From Nitrospira sp. KM1 (GTDB lineage: Bacteria; Nitrospirota; Nitrospiria; Nitrospirales; Nitrospiraceae): DNA of 64,000 bases. This document shows, piece after piece, positions 44,943 to 56,358 of the stretch (within the stretch, counting starts at the first letter, position 1; every line of letters begins with the position of its first letter). Location of the stretch: the NCBI RefSeq assembly GCF_011405515.1, contig NZ_AP022671.1:2232001-2296000 (forward strand). The letters are read 5' to 3'. The position numbers and the translations under genes were made by a program. The notes under the pieces are model-generated. The model was not told the origin of the DNA. It saw only the letters and a list, made by a program, of their open reading frames with translations, and did not search any database.

Positions 44943-46271
44943 ATGCAGATCAGTGTGATCGGAACGGGTTACGTCGGGCTCGTGACCGGAGCCTGTTTCG
45001 CGGAGTTCGGAGTCAACGTGCTCTGTATGGATTCGGATGCCAAACGTATTGCCAGATTAGAAAAGGGCGATGTCCCATTCTACGAACCCGGGATCACGGA
45101 ACTTGTCGCCAAAGGCATCAGCCAGAGCCGTCTGAGTTTCACCACGGACCTGACGCGCGCAGTCGATCACGGACAGGTCATTTTCATAGCTGTCGGGACT
45201 CCTCCCAAGAAAGATGGCTCGGCGGATCTGTCATTTGTTGAAGAAGTAGGCAGGGGCATTGCGCGCACCATGACATCGTATAAGGTGGTCGTCACCAAAT
45301 CGACCGTCCCGGTTGGAACGGGGGAACTGCTGCGAAAGGTTATCTCCTCAAGCCAGACGAAAAAAATCCTCTATGACGTAGCCTCTAATCCCGAGTTTCT
45401 GCGTGAGGGATCGGCGATAGAAGATTTCATGCGTCCCAACCGAGTGGTCATCGGAGCCGACAGCGAGCAGGCCGCGGCCGTGATGAAGGATCTCTATCGT
45501 CCGTTGTATTTGATTGAAACGCCATTTGTCGTAACCGACGTCCCCACCGCTGAAATGATCAAATACGCATCAAACGCCTTCCTCGCCACCAAGATTTCCT
45601 TTATCAATGAGATTGCGACGCTCTGCGAACGCGTCGGGGCCGATGTGCAAATGGTCGCGAAAGGCATGGGACTCGACCACCGGATCGGTTCCAAGTTCCT
45701 GCACGCCGGTCCCGGATTCGGCGGCTCATGCTTTCCAAAAGATCTGGCGGCGCTTGTACAGATGGGAGAGCGGGCCGGATATCCTATGCAGATCGCAGGC
45801 GCGGCGGCCGTGGTGAACCAACAGCAGCGGGACCGCATGGTCGTAAAAATTCAGGAAGCCTTGGGAGGGCTGAACGGCGCGGCGATCGGGATGCTGGGAT
45901 TGTCGTTCAAGCCCAATACGAACGACCTTCGCGAGGCCCCGGCGCTGGCCATTGCACAGGAATTGATGAAGCAGGGAGCTACTGTCCGCGCCTATGATCC
46001 GGCGGCAATGGAAGAAGCCACGCAACTGCTCGGCGGCATCATTCCGTGCAAAGATCCATATGAAGTAGCCACCGGCGTGGATGCCTTGATCATCATGACC
46101 GAATGGAACGAATTTCGAAACCTTGACTTCGAAACGCTCAAAACGCTCATGCGCAAGCTGAACCTGATCGACTTACGGAACGTCTACGAATCCAGCCGCG
46201 TCACGGGATTTGGTTTTCGCCATATTTCGGTTGGGCGGCGAGCACAGAATCCCGATCCCAAGTCCCACTGA
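44943..46271 (+). CDS. ugd: UDP-glucose 6-dehydrogenase
   Basis: Oxidises UDP-glucose to UDP-glucuronate for polysaccharides. 442 residues from the ATG at 44943 (GGAGG upstream). N-terminal NAD-binding G-T-G-Y-V-G-L-V-T-G-A-C, then E-F-L-R-E-G-S-A-I and the catalytic Cys in G-P-G-F-G-G-S-C-F-P-K-D near residue 263. The C-terminal domain has S-F-K-P-N-T-N-D-L-R. It stands alone, not in an exopolysaccharide cluster, and converges on the last HEAT gene with four bases between stops. Confidence 0.95.
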   Translation: MQISVIGTGYVGLVTGACFAEFGVNVLCMDSDAKRIARLEKGDVPFYEPGITELVAKGISQSRLSFTTDLTRAVDHGQVIFIAVGTPPKKDGSADLSFVEEVGRGIARTMTSYKVVVTKSTVPVGTGELLRKVISSSQTKKILYDVASNPEFLREGSAIEDFMRPNRVVIGADSEQAAAVMKDLYRPLYLIETPFVVTDVPTAEMIKYASNAFLATKISFINEIATLCERVGADVQMVAKGMGLDHRIGSKFLHAGPGFGGSCFPKDLAALVQMGERAGYPMQIAGAAAVVNQQQRDRMVVKIQEALGGLNGAAIGMLGLSFKPNTNDLREAPALAIAQELMKQGATVRAYDPAAMEEATQLLGGIIPCKDPYEVATGVDALIIMTEWNEFRNLDFETLKTLMRKLNLIDLRNVYESSRVTGFGFRHISVGRRAQNPDPKSH

Positions 46272-46275
46272 TCTG

Positions 46276-46983
46276 TCAGGTCAGCCGAGGCACCTCCGAC
46301 TTGGATGCATCCTTGGTCTTGGGCTTGTAACCCATCCGGTCCAAGACCTTGAGTACACGCGTCTTCAACCGATCGTCAGCCTCGGCTAACGCGGTGGCCA
46401 ACGGCTCGACGGCCGGTTTCCCGATCTTCCTGATGATTTCGGTCACCGACTGGCGCACTTCGTCTTCCTCGGACACCAATAATGGAACGAGCGATGGCAC
46501 CGCAATTCCGCCGATCTTGATGAGCGAATCGTATGCCCGTTGGCGCACGTCCCCCACTTCATCGGTCAAGGCGTCGACCAAGGGCTTCACGGCTCTGGCG
46601 TCCTTCAACTCCCCAAGGATTTCTGCCGCATATTTCCGGTTGAGCCAATGAGAGTCCTTGAGGTCCAGCAACATGGCATCCGCCCGTTCCGCGTTGGGAT
46701 CCTTGGCTCTGACTCTCAGATTCTTGGCGATCCGCCGACCGCCCTCCTCCACAACCCGTATGGTAGCCCCATCGCCAACCTTGACCCGTTGCAGGTCTTC
46801 CACTGCCTCATCGTCGACATCCAACACGACCGTCTTTCCGTCATACGCCAGCAATTCGACTTCGATCTGCTTAAGCGCTGGGTTGACGGCTACCACGCGT
46901 TCGGTCACGAGATTGAATCCGTCCTTCTTCGGACCTCCTTTGGGGCCGATTTGAATCAATTTCGCAGGTGCTTCGTCTGCCAT
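46276..46983 (-). CDS. HEAT-repeat protein with N-terminal beta domain
   Basis: 235 residues. The first 95 or so form a beta-rich segment (V-V-A-V-N-P-A-L-K-Q-I-E-V-E-L, V-V-L-D-V-D-D-E-A-V, V-G-D-G-A-T-I-R-V-V) not found in its neighbours. Three to four PBS-lyase-type HEAT repeats follow, with the helix signature A-A-E-I-L-G-E-L-K-D-A-R-A-V-K-P-L. Such repeats bind proteins. Last of five HEAT genes on this strand, 32 bases after the previous one. Function unknown; the N-terminal domain could be the specific part. Confidence 0.8.
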   Translation of the reverse strand: MADEAPAKLIQIGPKGGPKKDGFNLVTERVVAVNPALKQIEVELLAYDGKTVVLDVDDEAVEDLQRVKVGDGATIRVVEEGGRRIAKNLRVRAKDPNAERADAMLLDLKDSHWLNRKYAAEILGELKDARAVKPLVDALTDEVGDVRQRAYDSLIKIGGIAVPSLVPLLVSEEDEVRQSVTEIIRKIGKPAVEPLATALAEADDRLKTRVLKVLDRMGYKPKTKDASKSEVPRLT

Positions 46984-47015
46984 AATTGAGTTCCTTTATC
47001 TATCCGGATATAGAT

Positions 47016-47786
47016 TTACGATGCCGATTTCCATCCTAGACTAGCGAGGACACCTTCGACGGTTTCTTGAACCATCGTATTTTCATCTTCCAACAGAGGC
47101 AGCAGAGGATCAATCGCTTGTTTGGCTCCAAGCCGGGCCAGTGACTCCGCAGCATTCCGGCGCACCAACCAATCTTCGTCCTTTAGCGAATCAATCAGCG
47201 GACCGACACCGCGCTGGTCTCCGATCTTGCCCAGTGCCTCCGCCGCGTGACGCCGGACCATCCAATTGTTCCCCAGCAATCCGTCAATGAGTGCGTCGAC
47301 GGCGCGGGCGTCACCGATTTTTTTCAGGACGCGGGCAGCGTCCTCCCGCACAGTACTGTCCGTCAATGCCTCGACCAGCCCGGGAACGGCGCGTGGATCA
47401 CCGATCCGTTCGAGTGCCCACACGGCTGCCGTTCGCACGGCTCCATCCTTGTCTTTGAGCGCCTTGATGAGTGGTTCGATTCCTCGAGGATCCTTCAGCT
47501 TTCCCAAGCCTGACGCCGCTTGCTCGCGGATCGCCCATTCGTCGTCCTCGATAGCCTCGATCAATCGGCCGACGACCGATGGCCCGATTCGAACGACCGC
47601 CGTTGTCGCAGCTTCACGTATCACTACATCTTCATCGGCCATGAGGCCGATCAGAGGAGAGACCGCCTCTTCCCCGAGCTGACTCAGGCTCGCGATGGCA
47701 TGGTCGCGCAAAGCCTCATTGTCGTCGCGCAATGCACCGATCAGCTGTTCAATGCGGTCGGATGACTCGCTGTCATTCATCGTCAT
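47016..47786 (-). CDS. HEAT-repeat protein
   Basis: About 256 residues, nearly all regular HEAT repeats of about 31 residues (roughly seven), with consensus A-x-x-A-L-G-K-I-G-D-x-R-G-V-x-P-L-I-D-S-L-K-D-E-D. No signal peptide or membrane segment, so cytoplasmic. The ATG at 47786 overlaps the end of the preceding HEAT gene by 14 bases and has AGGA upstream, so the two are translationally coupled. No enzymatic motif. Relatives include phycobilin lyases (CpcE type), but no bilin system is seen here. Confidence 0.82.
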   Translation of the reverse strand: MTMNDSESSDRIEQLIGALRDDNEALRDHAIASLSQLGEEAVSPLIGLMADEDVVIREAATTAVVRIGPSVVGRLIEAIEDDEWAIREQAASGLGKLKDPRGIEPLIKALKDKDGAVRTAAVWALERIGDPRAVPGLVEALTDSTVREDAARVLKKIGDARAVDALIDGLLGNNWMVRRHAAEALGKIGDQRGVGPLIDSLKDEDWLVRRNAAESLARLGAKQAIDPLLPLLEDENTMVQETVEGVLASLGWKSAS

Positions 47787-48870
47787 GTCCTTCCTGAGCC
47801 AGGGCATGCTCGCCCGCCAAGGCGTCCAGTTTGTCGGCAATCAATCCGGCATTATAGGCCACGAGGCCGTCGCGGTCCGATCTCAGTCGATCGAATAGTT
47901 CTTTGTGCGGCCTCAGGACTTCCACATCCTTGATTTTTGCCAACGCCTCCATCGCATAGACTCGCAACGGACGGATTGGAATCGATTCCAAATACAGGTT
48001 CGTCGGGCGGGCATCACCGATCAAGCCAAGGGCTTTGATGGCCAACTCCTTGACCCCGGTATCCTTGTCCTGCTGTAAGCGTTTCATCAACGGTTCGACC
48101 GCCCGTACGTCCGCGATCTTGCCGAGCAAATCCGCCGCCGCCTCCCGGACAAGCCAATCTTCATCCTCGAGGTATTCAATGAGAATCTCCACGCTCGGAC
48201 GTCCAATGCCGAGCAATCCGATGACCGTCGACATACGGGCTTCTTCCCGTTCACTGGCCCCTTCGATTTCCCGCAGCACGTTGAACGATTCGTCGATCCG
48301 TTCCCGAATGGCTCCCAATTTTTTCAGCGTACCGACGGCAATATCACGAACAGCCGGCTGCCCCATCGCATCGATGAACGCGTCGACCGATCGCGGGTCG
48401 AGCAGCTGATTGAGCATTGTTGCAGCTGTGATTTGCGCCTCATGATCGCCTTGCTTCATCATGGCACACAGGGGAACGACCGCGGTCGGAATCGCCCCCA
48501 CGAGATGCGCGACGAGCTGCCTGCCCTCACCGGATTTCATATTCGGGAGCAGGGAGACCAGCGCTGTCGCAGTTTCCGTGTTCAAGACACCCGCCATCTG
48601 CTCCAATGCCATGGCTCCTGATTTTCGAACCGATTCATCTCCGTCTTCCAACAAACGGACGAGCGCCACGCCGGCATGCGGATCCTTGATTCGGGCCAGC
48701 ATGGCCGCAGCCTCTTTTTTCAGCTCGCCTCCTCCCGATTCCAAAACACCAATTAAGGCCTGGACCGCTCTGGGTCCGCCGGCCAGACAGGCGGCCGTCG
48801 CCCGCATCCGTCGCCAGTCCTCTTCATGGACCAGCTCGGTTACTAGCGTTTCGATGCTCTCCTTCGCCAT
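47773..48870 (-). CDS. HEAT-repeat protein
   Basis: About 365 residues from the ATG at 48870. HEAT repeats cover residues of about 5-165 and 230-330, separated by a less regular stretch (about 170-230) containing E-S-F-N-V-L-R-E-I-E-G-A-S-E-R. The second half has W-L-V-R-E-A-A-A-D-L-L-G-K-I-A-D-V-R-A-V-E-P-L. Coupled to the next HEAT gene by a 14-base overlap; 19 bases after the previous one. Predicted cytoplasmic scaffold; partner unknown. No clear ribosome site at the chosen ATG. Confidence 0.82.
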   Translation of the reverse strand: MAKESIETLVTELVHEEDWRRMRATAACLAGGPRAVQALIGVLESGGGELKKEAAAMLARIKDPHAGVALVRLLEDGDESVRKSGAMALEQMAGVLNTETATALVSLLPNMKSGEGRQLVAHLVGAIPTAVVPLCAMMKQGDHEAQITAATMLNQLLDPRSVDAFIDAMGQPAVRDIAVGTLKKLGAIRERIDESFNVLREIEGASEREEARMSTVIGLLGIGRPSVEILIEYLEDEDWLVREAAADLLGKIADVRAVEPLMKRLQQDKDTGVKELAIKALGLIGDARPTNLYLESIPIRPLRVYAMEALAKIKDVEVLRPHKELFDRLRSDRDGLVAYNAGLIADKLDALAGEHALAQEGHDDE

Positions 48871-48889
48871 GTATATGTACCGGTAGTCG

Positions 48890-49972
48890 TTAGACCCGGC
48901 CCGTCCGCCAGCCAACCCTGGCCAGGGTTTCTTTCACATGAAATCGTACATTGTCGTCTGATTCTTTAGATAAAAGGGTCAATAGGGGTGCGACTACTTT
49001 AGACCCGAACCGCGATAAGGCATCTGCTGCATCGCTCCTGGTGACCGTATGACGCAGTGCGCCCACCAGCGATGGAATGGCCGACTCATCGCCGATGGAA
49101 CCGAGAGCCCGTACCGCCGCTCCCATGACGATCATCTCTTCACTCCATGTGTCTCCGCAACCAGCCACGGTGCGCGAACCTTCCGGCCGCCCGGTTCCTT
49201 CCAGGACTCCGATCAACACCGGCACGGCCTGTCGATCCCCAATCTGTCCCAAGGCTTCGACCGCCAATGGTCTTAGTCCCGCCTCTTTCATCACCGTCAC
49301 GAGAAATGGAACTGCGCGTCCGTCTCCGATTTGCCCCAACGCACGGATGGTGTCTTCTCGCACCGCCGCATCGTGATCATTGAACAGCGCCGACAGGAGC
49401 GGCTCAACCGCCTGTGGCGATTTGGTCTTTCCCAACGCCTCGACAGCATGTAATCGAACGAGCCATTCTGAGTGAGTCAATGCAGCCAATAGCGATGGGA
49501 TAGCGGCATCTCCGATAGCGGCGAGCGTGGCTGACACCTCCTCACGTACGGCCTTGACCTTATCCTGCAGCAAAGGAACAAGCGGTCCGACTGCGCTCGA
49601 ATTCCGGATGCGGGCCAAGGCTTTCGCGGCATGCATACGCACAATCCAATCGCGGTTGACGAGAGAGGTGATCAGCTGAGGAAGGACTCTGGCATCGGCA
49701 ATTGACGCCAGAACGGCCGACGCCGCTTCCTGCACCTCCAACTGAGGATCGGATAGGCAGATTCCTAATGCGGGAACCGACGGCTCCCCGATCGCGGTCA
49801 ATGCTCCAATGGCAGCTTCACGGACGGCCCGATCGGAGTCTTTCAGCAAGCACACCAGCGGGGAAACTGCCCGGGGATCCCTTAGCGTTCCCAGCTTCTG
49901 AGCGGCTTCTTCGCGGATGGACCAATCTTCATCTTTCAGCGCCGCGATGTGTTCCGCTACGGCATCGGCCAT
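48890..49972 (-). CDS. HEAT-repeat protein with cysteine-bearing insert
   Basis: About 360 residues from an ATG at 49972 (G-rich stretch upstream; ATG codons at 50011 and nearby would add up to 13 residues). Ten or so HEAT repeats. Between two late repeats an insert of about 20 residues contains G-R-P-E-G-S-R-T-V-A-G-C, encoded at about 49157-49192, which resembles an insert at the same relative place in the HEAT protein at 50282-51649. The following helix ends A-A-V-R-A-L-G-S-I-G-D. The insert may form a binding loop. Function unknown. Confidence 0.82.
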   Translation of the reverse strand: MADAVAEHIAALKDEDWSIREEAAQKLGTLRDPRAVSPLVCLLKDSDRAVREAAIGALTAIGEPSVPALGICLSDPQLEVQEAASAVLASIADARVLPQLITSLVNRDWIVRMHAAKALARIRNSSAVGPLVPLLQDKVKAVREEVSATLAAIGDAAIPSLLAALTHSEWLVRLHAVEALGKTKSPQAVEPLLSALFNDHDAAVREDTIRALGQIGDGRAVPFLVTVMKEAGLRPLAVEALGQIGDRQAVPVLIGVLEGTGRPEGSRTVAGCGDTWSEEMIVMGAAVRALGSIGDESAIPSLVGALRHTVTRSDAADALSRFGSKVVAPLLTLLSKESDDNVRFHVKETLARVGWRTGRV

Positions 49973-50281
49973 CCCTGCCCCCATAGGAACCAAGGAGCGT
50001 AACATAGGCATTTTCTGACGGTCAACGGAAGGCTTCTCACTCCAGGTAACGACTGCCGGTCGTTGCGCTCCGCATTTCCTACCGACAGCATCGCTTGGAG
50101 ATCGGTTGTTTTAATGCCGCGCCGCGTACAGTATTCAAGCCGCTCGCCTTTTGTTGAGACGGCAAGGAGTACCCCACGGTACTAGCGAGAGGGGAATGGA
50201 CACAAGCGAAGCGGGCGAGGAAGACTCTCAGAACCCAGCATGCGGAATTCGACAGCGGGCGAGTCCATCAGGGTCTTCGGC

Positions 50282-51649
50282 CTACCCGGAGCCCTTCGCA
50301 TAGTCTCCAGATGGTCCGAACCGTCCGATTTCACCGAGCGGCATATCCACTCGCGCATTGTCGGTCGAACTGGAGTCAAGCGCTTGAGCCTCTTCCGGCA
50401 GGACCCAGCCCAATTTTTCCAACGTCTCCAGCACCAGTTGGCGCAATGCATCTTTGGCACTAAGCCGAACCGACGCATAGGACAAGACGCGCTCACCTTC
50501 CACCGCAACTTCCGAGGCTTTCGGGTCGTAAAGAAAGGCGATGAGTGGTTCGATTGCCGTATCGCCGATCGCCGCCAAGGCCGCGCTGGCTTTTTCGCGA
50601 AGTACGCCGTCTTTTAACAACATGATCAAGTCAGGAATCACGCGAGGATCCCTGAATTGTCCAAGTGCCGTCGCTGCCGCCTCTTTGATAAAGGCATCTT
50701 CGCTGACGATGCAGCCGGGCGTGGGCGTTCCTTCCTGACGGATGCCCTTTCCCTTCAACGCATCGAGCACAGGAGGGAGGGCACGCGGATCACCGATCAT
50801 GCCGAGCGAGGCAATGGCATGTCGCTTCACGGCTCCATCCTTCATGGCCTCGATCAACGCATCGATCGCACTCGGATCACCGATCATGCCGAGAGCGATG
50901 GTTGCATCTTCCCGTACCGCACGATCCGGATCCTTGAGCGCGGCGATCAACGCGTCGACAACCCTCGGCTCACGTACCCACGTCCTTCCGATCTGATAGT
51001 CCGTCGTCATGCCGCCGAGCGCTCTGGCGGCATGACAGCGGACGACAAAATCCTTGTCGGTAAAGCATGCAATCAGAGGATCCACCGAAGGTGGACCGAT
51101 ATAGACCAACGCGGTGCCGGCGGTCTCGCGAACGATCTTCGATGTATCCCGAAACAGTTTGATCAGCGGGGCGATGGCCTTGGGATCGCCGATTTTACCC
51201 AGCGCTTCCGCCGCCGCGCTCTTCACCGCACCATCCCGATCGCGGCAGGCCGCGATCAGGGCATCGACGACTCGGTGGTCTCGGATCTCACCACAGGTCT
51301 TGGCCGCGTGTTCTCGTACGCGCCACCGTTCATCTTTCATCGCAGTGATCATGCGGTCCAGCACGACCGGACCCATTTTGGCCGCAGCATCGACGGCTTG
51401 ATTGCGGACCTCCATGATAGGGTCATTGAAAAGGCCGACGAGAGCCTCAAGGGCTCTGGGGCCGCCGATCTTTCCGACCGCATTGCCGGCGTGGGCCCGT
51501 ACGGACCAATATTCGTCTCCGCACGCTCCGATCAGCGCATCCAGACTCTTGGGATCGCTGATGTCGGCAAGGGCCCTGGCCGCCTCTTCCCGCGTGGCAT
51601 CATCGACATCTTCAAGTGCGTCCAGCAAATCGTCCAACGCCTGCGCCAT
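50282..51649 (-). CDS. Large HEAT-repeat protein with cysteine-bearing insert
   Basis: 455 residues with about twelve HEAT repeats from residue 5 to 430. One insert near residues 215-230 (T-T-D-Y-Q-I-G-R-T-W) and another at 302-313, G-I-R-Q-E-G-T-P-T-P-G-C, which aligns with the insert of the next HEAT gene. A hydrophilic tail ends the protein. GAGG seven bases before the ATG. First of the five HEAT genes, separated from the second by about 310 bases without an evident gene or terminator, so it may be its own unit. Scaffold or regulatory role is inference. Confidence 0.83.
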   Translation of the reverse strand: MAQALDDLLDALEDVDDATREEAARALADISDPKSLDALIGACGDEYWSVRAHAGNAVGKIGGPRALEALVGLFNDPIMEVRNQAVDAAAKMGPVVLDRMITAMKDERWRVREHAAKTCGEIRDHRVVDALIAACRDRDGAVKSAAAEALGKIGDPKAIAPLIKLFRDTSKIVRETAGTALVYIGPPSVDPLIACFTDKDFVVRCHAARALGGMTTDYQIGRTWVREPRVVDALIAALKDPDRAVREDATIALGMIGDPSAIDALIEAMKDGAVKRHAIASLGMIGDPRALPPVLDALKGKGIRQEGTPTPGCIVSEDAFIKEAAATALGQFRDPRVIPDLIMLLKDGVLREKASAALAAIGDTAIEPLIAFLYDPKASEVAVEGERVLSYASVRLSAKDALRQLVLETLEKLGWVLPEEAQALDSSSTDNARVDMPLGEIGRFGPSGDYAKGSG

Positions 51650-51670: not shown

Positions 51671-52114
51671 TTAGTAGGTGTAGTCTCGTTGACCGCCGTG
51701 GGGGTAGGTCCGTGAACAACGGACCACCAGCATCTGCGTGCCCCGCCCCTCCACACACTGATCGAGCGATGCGGCGAAATCCAGCTTGCCTTCGAGATTC
51801 ACGGCAAAAGGAAAGTCGAACGTGAAACTCAAGAACTTATATTTACCAGGCTTCAACGAGAGCGTGCGTTTCTCGCTTGTCCTAAACGCATCCATCGACT
51901 CGGGATCCGAATTGTAGATCGAAGGTGTGACGCCGGGGACCTGCCACCAAGTAGGCGGCACAAGTATCGTCGCGTCGATCGTGATCGCATGCTCGGTCGT
52001 GTAGGCGGCCGGCGGACCCGCCGTCACGGTGGCCGCCCCTGTCCAAAGGCCGATGAGGCCAATGCCCAAGCTGAACCACCATCGCCGTGCCAGCAGAGAA
52101 TGGATGCGATCCAT
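51671..52114 (-). CDS. Small exported protein of unknown function
   Basis: Not recognised. 147 residues from the ATG at 52114: an N-terminal signal segment (about 1-32, W-W-F-S-L-G-I-G-L-I-G-L-W-T-G-A, cleavage near V-T-A-G) and a mature domain rich in beta strands with L-S-L-K-P-G-K-Y-K-F-L-S-F-T-F-D-F and two Cys (D-Q-C, V-R-C) that could pair. It is eight bases after the phosphodiesterase-like gene and 21 bases before the large HEAT gene, so it links the exported and HEAT groups. Confidence 0.65.
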   Translation of the reverse strand: MDRIHSLLARRWWFSLGIGLIGLWTGAATVTAGPPAAYTTEHAITIDATILVPPTWWQVPGVTPSIYNSDPESMDAFRTSEKRTLSLKPGKYKFLSFTFDFPFAVNLEGKLDFAASLDQCVEGRGTQMLVVRCSRTYPHGGQRDYTY

Positions 52115-52122
52115 CGTCGTCC

Positions 52123-53151
52123 CTACGGAATCATATCCGGCACATTGGAGTTCGGCGCGGCCGCGACGAAGGCGTGCTGAAAGATTTCCTCCACTGCCCG
52201 GCTTTCCCATTCAGTATGCGTTTGAAGTCCCAACGTGCGCATGACCGTGGCGCCGGTATCGATGATTGAAACCGGTTGGTGAATGGCGTGCCCGTGCTTG
52301 ATCCCGACCCCGGAAGCGATCCATGGCACAACCGGTGTAGATCCATCCGTGCGGTCCTGGGCGGCATCCATCCCTTCCGCCGTCAAGGACGTGACAAATA
52401 CGGTCGTCCGGTTGAGCAGGCTCTGGGTCTTATAGATGTCCAGAACTGAGCCAATCGCCTTATCGACGGAGCGAAGAGCTTCCCGGTATTCCTTTGAGGC
52501 CCATCCACGGGAGGCGCCGACCCGTCCGGCTTCCGGCAAATGGACGACGAGAAGATGAGGCAACGAAGGAATCGCATGACCATATCCGTGGCCGCTGGTC
52601 GCTTTCTTGAAATATTGCTGGATATAGGACACGATTCGCTCTGTGCTACATTCCGGTTTGAGCGGCCCGCACATTTGATAATCTGTATACGGTTCGGGTC
52701 TCGCCAATTGATACAGCGATTCGTCCATGAAAAAGATTGCGCTGTCTCGCCCCCCGCTCAAATCGAGGTAATCGAACACGCTTGGAGAGCGTGGGTAACC
52801 ACGGCTGAACTCGAAGGCGTTCCAGGTAATGCCATGTTTTTCAACCGGCATGCCGGTAATTAACGATGCCATGGTGGGTAACCGCAGAGCAGGTTTTACT
52901 GCTGTCGCAGACCACGTCACCGACCCGTCCTTAATCAGGCGACCCAGCGTGGGCATGGTGCTGCCTTTCAGCGATTCCTGACTGAACCCCTCGAGGACAA
53001 ATAAGACGACGTATTCCGTCGGAGGAGTGGAAGGAGCAGCGGTCTGGGGCTGGGAAACAGGTGCCGGAGCAGAGATACCGGATTGGGGTTCAAGGAAAAG
53101 TAGCATAAGTCCGACAAGAAGAACGGGAATGCGCCAAGATCCGCTCGTCAT
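52123..53151 (-). CDS. Exported phosphodiesterase-fold protein, catalytic residues lost
   Basis: 342 residues; ATG at 53151 with AGAGGG six bases upstream. Signal peptide about 1-28, Pro-rich linker, then an alkaline-phosphatase-superfamily (type I phosphodiesterase) domain recognisable from P-T-L-G-R-L-I-K-D-G, L-I-T-G-M-P-V-E-K-H-G-I and S-K-E-Y-R-E-A-L-R-S-V-D-K-A-I. Expected catalytic positions are changed: the first metal Asp is Glu54, the Thr nucleophile position is Arg90, the D-x-x-G-H segment reads P-E-A-G-R-V-G, and S-D-H-G-M reads S-L-T-A-E-G-M near 255-261. Probably a non-catalytic binding protein. Divergent from the FlgT-like gene. Confidence 0.75.
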   Translation of the reverse strand: MTSGSWRIPVLLVGLMLLFLEPQSGISAPAPVSQPQTAAPSTPPTEYVVLFVLEGFSQESLKGSTMPTLGRLIKDGSVTWSATAVKPALRLPTMASLITGMPVEKHGITWNAFEFSRGYPRSPSVFDYLDLSGGRDSAIFFMDESLYQLARPEPYTDYQMCGPLKPECSTERIVSYIQQYFKKATSGHGYGHAIPSLPHLLVVHLPEAGRVGASRGWASKEYREALRSVDKAIGSVLDIYKTQSLLNRTTVFVTSLTAEGMDAAQDRTDGSTPVVPWIASGVGIKHGHAIHQPVSIIDTGATVMRTLGLQTHTEWESRAVEEIFQHAFVAAAPNSNVPDMIP

Positions 53152-53355
53152 AGGGAACCCTCTGTGCATAATTGGACTCAAAAGAAAAGGTACCTTAGCA
53201 TGCGAATTTTCGGGAAGGCAAGACGCCAGCAAGGACCCCGGCGCCTCTATTCAAAGGGGTTGGCGGGTGTTATGCTCGAAGTGATCCGATCGCATGACGG
53301 AGCCGTCGGACGGAGGATGATCCAGACACCCGCATCCCTGACGAGGGTCTACTCG

Positions 53356-54441
53356 ATGCTCCTTCGGCCTTCCACGCAAGCGGTCCCGACCAGATCCACA
53401 CCTCGCTGCCTGCCCTACTGCATCGCCATGCTGCTGCCGTTCACCCTGTCTGTTTTCATACCAGATTTCGTCCGGGCCGAAGTGCGTATTGTCACAGCCC
53501 AGGGCAAACATCTGATGAGCGACCGCGATACGAGAGAGGATGCGGTCCGCATGGCGACAGAGGCCGCGAAACGGGACGCACTTGAGCAGGTAGCGACCTA
53601 TCTCGAAAGTGTGACGGTCGTCGACCAACTTCATATCACCAAGGACGAGATTCGAACCTACACAGCCGGGCTGGTACTGATCCTTGACCAACGGACGAAA
53701 GTGGACTTGGAAGCTCATCGGGTCGTCGTCACGGTCGATCTTGTCGCCCAAGTCGATAGCGACGAGGTCCGTCGGGCGATTTCCGCATTGCGACAGAACG
53801 AAGACGCGCGGCAACAGCTCATTACGCTCCGCCGTGAAATTGACGGTCTGCACCAACAATTACGCACTGTCAATCATGCACTGTCCCGGGCGTCCACGGC
53901 CGAACAGGCGACGCATGAGACAGAGCACCGTCAGAGGATCCTGGATCAGGTGCAATCCAACGCCATGGTATCTCAGGCCTGGACCGATTGGGTGCTGACT
54001 TCGCCAGTAGTGGCCCCCTTGGCCGGACTCGCTCAAACGCAGTCACTGTTGAACCTCGCCGGCGGGCTCTATCCAGGAAGCCCACATGTGCAAGCCGCGC
54101 GACAGGTCATGAGTGCGCCGCGGCCTCCGGTACCGCATCGCCCACCCACACCGCCGGCACCGGGAAGTACCGCTCCTGCGATACCGAGCTATCAACTCGT
54201 GCCTCCGCCCGGAGAGCGGGCCCATGCAAAAACATTGAACGAGATCACCGAGGACAATGGGGTACCGGCATCCCAAGGATCAGACATCGTCACCGACACA
54301 CGTCAATTGAGCCGGTCCTCTCGCATGTCGCGCGGCACATCGGCATCGTCATCACCAGCCTCGCGCTCAACTGGAACGGCTGAAACCATCATGCTGCAGA
54401 ATGAAGAAATCAGCATCGGCGGCGGGAACGGTCACCCGTGA
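53356..54441 (+). CDS. Exported FlgT/LPP20-like protein with Pro/Ser-rich tail
   Basis: About 361 residues from the ATG at 53356 (GAGGG eight bases upstream; earlier in-frame ATGs exist at 53317 and 53272). Signal peptide about 1-41, ending V-R-A before E-V-R-I-V-T-A-Q-G. Mature residues about 42-140 follow the FlgT-N/LPP20-like pattern of A-V-R-M-A-T-E-A-A-K-R-D-A-L-E-Q-V followed by alternating strands. A coiled-coil-like region (about 150-210) and a Pro-, Ser- and Arg-rich tail follow. FlgT-like domains occur in envelope proteins. It overlaps the next gene by four bases. Confidence 0.6.
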   Translation: MLLRPSTQAVPTRSTPRCLPYCIAMLLPFTLSVFIPDFVRAEVRIVTAQGKHLMSDRDTREDAVRMATEAAKRDALEQVATYLESVTVVDQLHITKDEIRTYTAGLVLILDQRTKVDLEAHRVVVTVDLVAQVDSDEVRRAISALRQNEDARQQLITLRREIDGLHQQLRTVNHALSRASTAEQATHETEHRQRILDQVQSNAMVSQAWTDWVLTSPVVAPLAGLAQTQSLLNLAGGLYPGSPHVQAARQVMSAPRPPVPHRPPTPPAPGSTAPAIPSYQLVPPPGERAHAKTLNEITEDNGVPASQGSDIVTDTRQLSRSSRMSRGTSASSSPASRSTGTAETIMLQNEEISIGGGNGHP

Positions 54442-54992
54442 AGACCATGGTGTTCCGGGCGGCGCTTTTTTTGCTGGTTATACATTTTCCGACAATACCC
54501 ATTCGCACAGCGGAAGCAGAAGTCGATGAGGTGAGGGGCCGCGCCGAACAGTCCTTTGATCGACTGCAAAGTCAGCAGCGATCGTCAGACCCCTCAAAAT
54601 CTGCCGTGGTCCCGCCACGAAGCGCCGGGGAACGAGCCTCATACTCTCCGGATCAATTTCTGATCGGCAAAGGTCAAGGCGATATGTCCAAAGGGACCAT
54701 CGTCTGTCAGCGGGTGTCAGAATTGTCAGCCAGGACCGATCTCGCCAAGCAGATCCGGATTCTTGTCAAAGAACATATGGTCGATCGCGTCCGCGAGCGG
54801 TCCGGGAAGGACGTCGATCAAGATATCGAAGTCACGAGAGAAGAAATCGTGCAAGAGTATTTGCAGGGCGTGAAGATCGTGGACCGACAGATCGACGAAT
54901 CGGGAAAAACCTGTTCTGCGACCGCCGTCATGCCGAAAACCCAGGCTCGAGCCGGATCGACAGACGGCCACGAAGCCTCGGCCAAACCATAG
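54438..54992 (+). CDS. Exported LPP20-like protein
   Basis: 184 residues; GTG at 54438 overlaps the previous stop, with an ATG three codons later as alternative. Signal peptide about 1-27 (cleavage near A-E-A-E). After a hydrophilic linker, residues of about 70-165 form an LPP20/FlgT-like module: F-L-I-G-K-G-Q-G-D, V-S-E-L-S-A-R-T-D-L-A-K-Q-I-R and V-T-R-E-E-I-V-Q-E-Y-L-Q-G-V-K-I-V-D-R. Two Cys (I-V-C-Q, T-C-S). The upstream gene carries a related module, so the pair probably acts together in the envelope; there is no lipobox Cys. Confidence 0.62.
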   Translation: MKTMVFRAALFLLVIHFPTIPIRTAEAEVDEVRGRAEQSFDRLQSQQRSSDPSKSAVVPPRSAGERASYSPDQFLIGKGQGDMSKGTIVCQRVSELSARTDLAKQIRILVKEHMVDRVRERSGKDVDQDIEVTREEIVQEYLQGVKIVDRQIDESGKTCSATAVMPKTQARAGSTDGHEASAKP

Positions 54993-55083: not shown

Positions 55084-56358
55084 ATGCCGATCGAAAATAA
55101 TTTTCAGCATGACGAGCTGTCGAGGAAAAATCCCGGCGAGCGTGTCGGCTATGCTCAACTGGCTGCCGGGCCCGCCCCCGATAGTCCACTCTGGCGCAAT
55201 GAGATGTCCCAATGCGCCGGCCGGCTGCACGAGGCAGGTGTCCGAGCCGTCGTTTTTTTCCATGGTGTCATCCATGGTAGCGATGTGTTCGGCATGCAAC
55301 GACTTGATGAAGCGGGAGGTTTGAAACGAGGGTATTCCCGCGGAGTGTCCGGCGTCGATGCGCTTCTCGCTTACATGCGCGAAGGCAACAACGGTATTCC
55401 TCCACTCGCTGGGAGCCTCAAGCCTCCGTTTGCCGGCGACGACAAGACACGGCAGGTGATCGATAGTCAGGTCGGAGACGCCGGCAACTTTACCGACGCC
55501 TATGTGACGCAGTGTCGCAGTGGGCTAAACAGCAATCCGGCGCATCCGATCACCGTCGTCCGGCGACTCTGGTCTTGCGAACACTTCCACCTCGGCCGGC
55601 TTCTCGCGTCCCTGCGGCTGCTCGGCGACCTCCGCGCCCTGTGTGAAAGTCAGAGCCTTAAACCAGATGACAGGATTCTCGTGTTGGCGCACGGACAGTC
55701 CGGGCTGGTGACCGCGCTTGCGTCCAATTTTCTTTGTCCAAGCCCAATCGTGGGCAGATCGACGCTTCTGCGGCTGATTGCTACCTATGCCGAACGGAAC
55801 AACCTGACGGACGTGACCCACCTGCTGAAAATCTTGGAACCGTTGTTCCCCACGGGATCAGTGCTCCATGGCGTCACGCTCGATATCGTCACGCTCGGGA
55901 CGCCGGTCCGTTACGGATGGGATCCGTCTGGCATCGGCAAGTTACTGCACGTCGTGAATCATCGTCAGCTACGCTCTGACGGCAAGGCTTGGCTGTCGAA
56001 AATGGAGCTTCCTCAAATCACGATGGAGATGCCCATTGCCTGGGGCGGCGACTATGTCCAGGAATTGGCGGTGGCCGGCAGCGACAGCATGCCGCCGACT
56101 GAACAGGCCAAGGCGGCGAACAAGGCGGTATGGGAACTGGTCGAGCCTTACGACGGGTTCGAGCGTTGGCTGGAATGCGCGCGCCGCGCCGTACGGATTC
56201 CGAGTGAGGGACACGGTCTGTTAATCGACTATCAAGACTCGACCGGCTCCGCCAACCCACGCGACCATTATTATGGCCACGCCGTGTACACTCGCCGCGA
56301 CATCATGCTCTTCAATCTCAAGCAAATCATCGATGGCATGTATCGTGCCGCCGCCTAA
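55084..56358 (+). CDS. Lipase-like alpha/beta-hydrolase-fold protein, unconfirmed
   Basis: 424 residues, no obvious signal peptide. V-V-F-F-H-G-V-I-H-G near 56-65 resembles the oxyanion strand of lipases, and L-V-L-A-H-G-Q-S-G-L-V near 199-209 resembles a nucleophile elbow (Ser206 in H-G-Q-S-G). L-G-T-P-V-R-Y-G-W-D near 272-281 is reminiscent of the lipase G-T-P segment. A C-terminal H-Y-Y-G-H-A-V-Y-T could give the His. Predicted serine hydrolase of unknown substrate. It follows the LPP20-like gene by 91 bases. The start has no strong ribosome site. Confidence 0.5.
   Translation: MPIENNFQHDELSRKNPGERVGYAQLAAGPAPDSPLWRNEMSQCAGRLHEAGVRAVVFFHGVIHGSDVFGMQRLDEAGGLKRGYSRGVSGVDALLAYMREGNNGIPPLAGSLKPPFAGDDKTRQVIDSQVGDAGNFTDAYVTQCRSGLNSNPAHPITVVRRLWSCEHFHLGRLLASLRLLGDLRALCESQSLKPDDRILVLAHGQSGLVTALASNFLCPSPIVGRSTLLRLIATYAERNNLTDVTHLLKILEPLFPTGSVLHGVTLDIVTLGTPVRYGWDPSGIGKLLHVVNHRQLRSDGKAWLSKMELPQITMEMPIAWGGDYVQELAVAGSDSMPPTEQAKAANKAVWELVEPYDGFERWLECARRAVRIPSEGHGLLIDYQDSTGSANPRDHYYGHAVYTRRDIMLFNLKQIIDGMYRAAA

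Follow-up and report, generated by a model that had tools for sequence, protein, structure and literature searches.

A phosphodiesterase homologue with replaced catalytic residues is conserved beside a small partner gene in Nitrospirales

Introduction

The type I phosphodiesterase family (PF01663) includes bacterial and animal nucleotide pyrophosphatases/phosphodiesterases such as 7mw8, 2gsn and ENPP1. The protein studied here resembles these enzymes in sequence over parts of the domain, but it has other residues at every metal-ligand position and at that of the Thr nucleophile. Phosphonoacetate hydrolase (PhnA) provides the best-scoring NCBIfam model, TIGR02335, which aligns over residues 47-113 with 18.6 bits (cut-off 407.55); here too the likeness stops at the catalytic residues, which our protein lacks. 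In the way it might work, the protein is comparable to YejM (also PbgA or LapC), a protein whose periplasmic domain belongs to the same superfamily and has a regulatory job. According to PMC7576196, YejM regulates envelope lipid synthesis, and, once called inactive, was later reported to be a Mg-dependent phosphatase. It differs from the present protein in having five membrane helices and in retaining Asp268, Thr302 and a metal site (PMC7576196), and the corresponding model NF038282 gives our protein 15.9 bits against a cut-off of 825.

More similar are the intact enzymes of a sister family within the same order (f3 below). They are colinear with our protein, have the Cys pair 161/168 in common with it and carry an N-terminus that looks export-like by eye, but they possess the catalytic Thr, Asp, His and H-G-T and have no adjoining partner gene. 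Among titles and starts of abstracts in the open-licence literature, we found no description of this pseudoenzyme family or locus.

Results

A homologue of type I phosphodiesterases

We analysed a 64,000-nucleotide stretch of Nitrospira sp. KM1 DNA, referred to as the window, and focused on one minus-strand gene and its neighbours (Table 1). The first-pass annotation had described an exported protein with an intact frame, a ribosome site and the scaffold of a type I phosphodiesterase; the frame, the ribosome site and the scaffold are borne out, and export is likely. The frame runs from an ATG through 342 residues, an AGAGGG-like ribosome site lies just 5' of the start, and the N-terminus, judged by eye, has the short basic start and hydrophobic stretch of an export signal. 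PF01663 matches residues 48-255 with 72.9 bits (E 4.8e-20), above its curated cut-off of 23. Sulfatase (PF00884), which we take to belong to the same superfamily, barely makes its cut-off, and no other Pfam or NCBIfam domain scores above cut-off. Relatives in the PDB are nucleotide pyrophosphatases, with 7mw8 at E 1.5e-10. The AlphaFold2 model is poor (mean pLDDT 41.5), probably because the 80 close orthologues form a shallow alignment; the sequence is therefore our evidence for the fold, and the model does not allow a surface to be located. Promoter and terminator scans yielded about as much as scans of shuffled sequence. The same genome also encodes a canonical family member with its motifs in place (L002/L091, G000:C1:408291-409250).

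Table 1 Features of the locus, with residue numbers of the window protein. f1, f2 and f3 are families of the order.
Feature	Position in window	Strand	Description
Pseudo-phosphodiesterase (window protein)	52123..53151	-	342 aa, ATG start, stop included
Glu54 codon	52990..52992	-	First metal Asp position; E in 98/98 f1, 12/12 second copies and 25/26 f2; D in 6/7 f3
Arg90 codon	52882..52884	-	Thr nucleophile position; R in 98/98 f1 and 11/12 second copies; T in 24/26 f2 and 7/7 f3
Residues 113-170	52642..52815	-	Most conserved stretch: mean entropy 0.62 bits, 24/58 residues at >=97%; presumed new interface
Gly209 codon	52525..52527	-	Asp of D-x-x-x-H
Ala213 codon	52513..52515	-	His of D-x-x-x-H; variable across f1
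Leu256-Thr257 codons	52381..52386	-	Asp-His pair position (S-D-H = Ser255-Leu256-Thr257)
Residues 258-275	52327..52380	-	Loop with third His in intact sister; least conserved of mature domain: 2.42 bits, 0/18 at 97%
exp147	51671..52114	-	Small exported-looking protein, 147 aa; 8 nt past pseudoenzyme stop; weak CnaB/transthyretin-like beta-sandwich model
HEAT/PBS-lyase-repeat protein	50282..51649	-	455 aa; third gene of conserved run; export signal not seen by eye

All six alignable catalytic residues are replaced

Six sites were scored (54, 90, 209, 213, 256 and 257), numbered as in the window protein, and we assume for them the ligand and nucleophile roles of the type I phosphodiesterase family. 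Positions were mapped in two ways, by a gap-free alignment to a PDB nucleotide pyrophosphatase over the parts that it covers and by hhalign to the intact f3 sisters (285 columns, E 4.7e-55, 38% identity). Both alignments place Glu54 at the metal Asp, Arg90 at the Thr nucleophile, and Gly209 and Ala213 at the D-x-x-x-H motif. None of the six residues is kept. The third metal His, found in T-H-G-T in f3, is absent too, as residues 256-277 contain no His. The protein thus has Arg90 in place of the nucleophile that defines the enzymes, and their two-metal ligand set (Asp; Asp-x-x-x-His; Asp-His; His) is replaced by Glu54, Gly209, Ala213, Leu256 and Thr257. Most of the replacements listed in the first-pass annotation hold (Glu54, Arg90 and S-L-T at 255-257), but its reading of P-E-A-G-R as the D-x-x-G-H motif was shifted by three: the PDB and f3 alignments show that Pro206 and Arg210 are the wrong residues and Gly209 and Ala213 the right ones.

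Glu54 by itself would not be disabling, because one otherwise intact f3 protein has Glu at this position and EptA and LtaS have a metal-site Glu; Glu240 (EptA) and Glu255 (LtaS) appear among the metal-site residues given in PMC7576196. A precedent for caution is YejM, first called inactive and later reported to be a phosphatase (PMC7576196), and the window protein could likewise be a phosphodiesterase of the ancestral type whose shifted ligands were missed by the alignments. We consider this very unlikely, as the third His and all six scored residues are missing between flanks that align along the full 285 columns to the intact sisters, and f1 has an Arg at the nucleophile position.

Catalytic residues were probably lost in stages

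Sites were counted in 139 distinct proteins. L002 (the canonical enzyme) and five duplicate proteins were set aside. The 132 f1 loci include the same places under two identifiers and correspond to 98 distinct proteins. All 98 have zero of the six sites intact, as do all 12 second copies in f1 genomes, and the alignment of orthologues for shared replacements, which the first-pass annotation had proposed as a check, therefore agrees with its claim. Family f2 (n = 26) is intermediate, with one site intact in 20 proteins, two in 5 and none in 1; the residue retained is mostly the Thr (24/26), and His213 is kept in 5. In the sister family f3 (G286, G360, G376 and G461-G464), six of the seven proteins have all six sites, and the seventh has Glu for Asp54. 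The f3 data comprise three loci, each with 6/6 sites, and four short loci of ~4 kb. The four further proteins carry the Thr, D-x-x-x-H, D-H-G-G-H and H-G-T, with Glu for Asp54 in one; their D-H-G-G-H was read from the alignment rows, where a gap displaces the Asp-His columns.

A maximum-likelihood tree of 39 proteins, rooted by distant outgroups only and to be read with caution for its long outgroup branches, places f3 as sister to f1 and f2 (support 100/99 for f1 plus f2, 100/98 for all three and 97/99 for f2). Because the intact f3 proteins stand beside f1 plus f2, catalysis was probably lost once, on the branch leading to these two families, and the loss then completed stepwise, with Thr giving way to Arg in f1. 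Orthologues with intact catalytic residues, which had been named as evidence that would count against a pseudoenzyme, do literally exist in f3, but f3 is a sister lineage: its proteins reveal the ancestry and leave the inactivity of f1 and f2 unrefuted.

Constraint has probably moved away from the old active site

Pairwise dN/dS over residues 45-330 has a median of 0.066 (range 0.019-0.176), calculated from the 351 pairs, among 3,403, whose dS falls in the range 0.2-1.0. The window protein thus combines homology to enzymes and loss of their catalytic motif with purifying selection across lineages. The first-pass annotation had suggested dN/dS as a further check on its view that the gene is conserved rather than decaying, and this view is well supported by the low ratio, the shared loss in f1 and the near-universal presence of the gene in that family. 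Decay would account for the loss of all catalytic residues, but we rejected a relic under decay on the basis of the dN/dS and the distribution (113/114 good f1 genomes); with many invariant residues and an intact frame besides, this reading is barely credible.

We then interrogated where constraint sits, using the entropy of 136 f1 and f2 proteins in regions with hand-set borders. The lowest and highest values of the mature domain lie in the stretch 113-170 and the loop 258-275, respectively (Table 1), and this loop is mostly invariant among three f3 proteins. Thirty-three residues are conserved in f1 and f2 and absent from the three f3 proteins compared, and 18 of them lie between 121 and 186. 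Since constraint peaks at 113-170 and is lowest in the old metal loop, and since the residues specific to f1 and f2 cluster at 121-186, the working surface has probably moved to the stretch of about 113-170.

Residues D127, D130, D136, D143, Y147, Q148, Y155, D157 and Q159, which are kept in f1 and f2 and differ in the three f3 proteins, raise the alternative that the protein is an enzyme of another kind and that its active site is a new one, located in 113-170, where conserved Asp, Glu, Tyr and Gln abound. This seems doubtful to us: no catalytic motif was recognised there by eye, no Pfam or NCBIfam domain besides the phosphodiesterase and Sulfatase matches was found, and conserved acidic and aromatic residues would suit a protein interface equally well.

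A second alternative, similar to the binding role suggested in the first-pass annotation, retains the dead pocket for ligands. Arg90 is present in 109/110 and Arg210 in 110/110 f1 proteins and second copies, and the helix region around the nucleophile position is conserved in f1 (0.37 bits). These two near-invariant residues could bind an anionic ligand at the old pocket, and the f1 protein would then sense phosphate, sulfate or another anionic group through a basic pocket. Against this, f2 has Thr90 in 24/26 proteins and Asp at 210 in 14/26, leaving no common pocket chemistry; the loop 258-275 varies freely; and both Arg side chains are only presumed to face the pocket. We regard the basic pocket as possible but unlikely. 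The f1-specific Arg90 and the weak conservation of the last-ligand loop speak against one ligand shared by f1 and f2 at the former active site.

The family is restricted to one order in the sampled phylum

Among 395 genomes sampled across the phylum, 138 match the family and all fall within one order, in f1, f2 and f3. The gene is found in 166/175 genomes of f1, and named members among the best 80 of 128 relatives include Nitrospira moscoviensis and Ca. Nitrospira defluvii. When the intact f3 proteins were used as query, 214/235 genomes of the order matched, with 7/8 in f3 and 0/4 in f4 among those listed. Outside the order, the f3 profile finds its next-ranking matches at E 2e-10 and 1.5e-9, which suggests that within the sampled phylum, the scope of this profile search, the proteins of f1, f2 and f3 are more closely related to one another than to any others. 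The frame is intact in nearly all listed f1 members. Partial or weak members occur in G414, G451 and G455, the last matching at 4.3e-15 in the family search and without a match in the order search with the f3 query. The matched frames of G407 and G399 contain one TAG each, and one TGA lies within the listed match of L258, but its domain frame as read is free of TGA.

We also considered, and rejected, a tie between catalytic loss and nitrite oxidation. TIGR03479, which we take as a rough proxy for the nitrite oxidoreductase large molybdenum subunit, was run on 18 genomes. Most of the f1 and f2 genomes among them have matching frames of ~1,150 aa, all matches being below cut-off. Such frames also occur where the enzyme is intact (f3 genomes G286 and G376) and where the pseudoenzyme is missing (f1/f2 genomes G290 and G191), and the catalytic loss is therefore not tied to them. 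In the KM1 assembly itself, three frames of 1152-1539 aa match TIGR03479 below cut-off (G000:C1:1125969, 2319617 and 2446049) and are presumably of the nitrite oxidoreductase type.

An exp147 gene follows the pseudoenzyme gene in f1 and f2

Directly downstream of the pseudoenzyme, and on its strand, a homologue of exp147 is present in 132/132 f1 loci, 12/12 second-copy loci and 26/26 f2 loci (170/170 in total), whereas none adjoins the intact enzyme in the three f3 loci or within the four short ones (~4 kb). Of 137 f1 and f2 genomes in the 395-genome sample, 135 have both genes and two (G290, G191) have neither; extra pseudoenzyme matches in G118, G351 and G284 lack an equal number of partner matches. 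The first-pass annotation had pointed to a HEAT array and exported proteins as neighbours. A HEAT-repeat gene does come next after the partner in 75/80 main loci (of the other five, four are cut off by the end of a contig, and the partner gene of L082 contains a run of N), and the order pseudoenzyme, partner, HEAT gene recurs in 10/10 long f2 loci, but the neighbour that counts is exp147. Each of the 12 second copies is accompanied by its own partner copy, and no HEAT gene of this array was found near those at L152 and L153, which have long flanks, or at the shorter L010. Because second copies travel with the partner and, at these three loci, without the HEAT gene, the conserved unit, as judged from gene order, is the pair and not the HEAT array.

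The best VIA-align hit of the exp147 model (pLDDT 69) is 2x5p, with Z 5.8 and rmsd 2.7 over 77 residues, and Foldseek returned no match at E <= 0.001; the model weakly suggests a beta-sandwich of the CnaB/transthyretin-like type. Partner homologues also occur apart from the enzyme. In the f3 genomes G286 and G376 they are located away from the intact phosphodiesterase (L161:6582-6983 and L162:2908-3303, both minus strand), flanked by genes that their translations name as a LolD-type ABC ATPase and a dihydroorotate-dehydrogenase-like protein, and the partner therefore has some role without the enzyme. In another family of the class, five partner-like stretches lie in tandem inside frames of 874 and 1271 aa (L156-L160, G125:C2:168871-170158), where the domain may be a repeat module.

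Other genes surround the pair in the window. Five consecutive HEAT/PBS-lyase-repeat-like genes occupy 46276-51649 (-), a run kept in many f1 loci, of which the Pfam scan covered the first; the run ends at a gene read as UDP-glucose-dehydrogenase-like (44946-46271, +). On the other side, two exported-looking genes at 53206-54992 (+), the second with a weak LPP20 match (E 0.0012), are present in most f1 loci and absent from the 10 long f2 loci. A 424-aa protein at 55084-56358 (+), for which neither Pfam nor NCBIfam gives a match, contains the stretch AHGQSG, suggestive by eye of an alpha/beta-hydrolase; its gene stays upstream of the cassette in both f1 and f2, at 43-46% identity in f2.

Discussion

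The residues of the chemistry are lost, yet selection on the gene is strong and it stands beside one small partner gene; the function of the window protein is therefore probably to bind, not to catalyse. The explanation that we favour, with a probability of roughly 0.6, is a non-catalytic envelope scaffold that descends from a type I phosphodiesterase and docks exp147. According to this explanation, the protein would be a vertically inherited pseudoenzyme with the type I phosphodiesterase fold of the alkaline phosphatase superfamily, incapable of phosphoester hydrolysis through the ancestral two-metal mechanism. Both proteins would be exported to the periplasm and form a complex there, in which the reworked stretch of about 113-170, as part of a rigid scaffold, would dock the small beta-sandwich partner. 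The role in the envelope may be structural or regulatory. Against the scaffold stands the fact that shared regulation alone could explain the operon linkage.

More speculatively, and with considerable doubt on our part, an enzyme of the superfamily may have lost its activity a single time, close to where the main Nitrospirales lineages begin, and then been remodelled, with 113-170 and an exported partner newly joined to it at the centre, into a core apparatus of the envelope that is specific to these bacteria and acts as a sensor, as an assembly factor or as a novel kind of enzyme.

Pseudoenzymes are already known; here, intact, intermediate and fully replaced forms are found within one bacterial order. 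A family match alone would annotate these proteins as phosphodiesterases. That an exp147 gene comes after that of the pseudoenzyme in f1 and f2 is a new observation. With the partner gene adjoining only in lineages without catalysis, the families form a clear natural series, which opens to experiment the question of how enzymes turn into binding proteins, and which points to a two-protein envelope module in the group that includes N. moscoviensis and Ca. N. defluvii.
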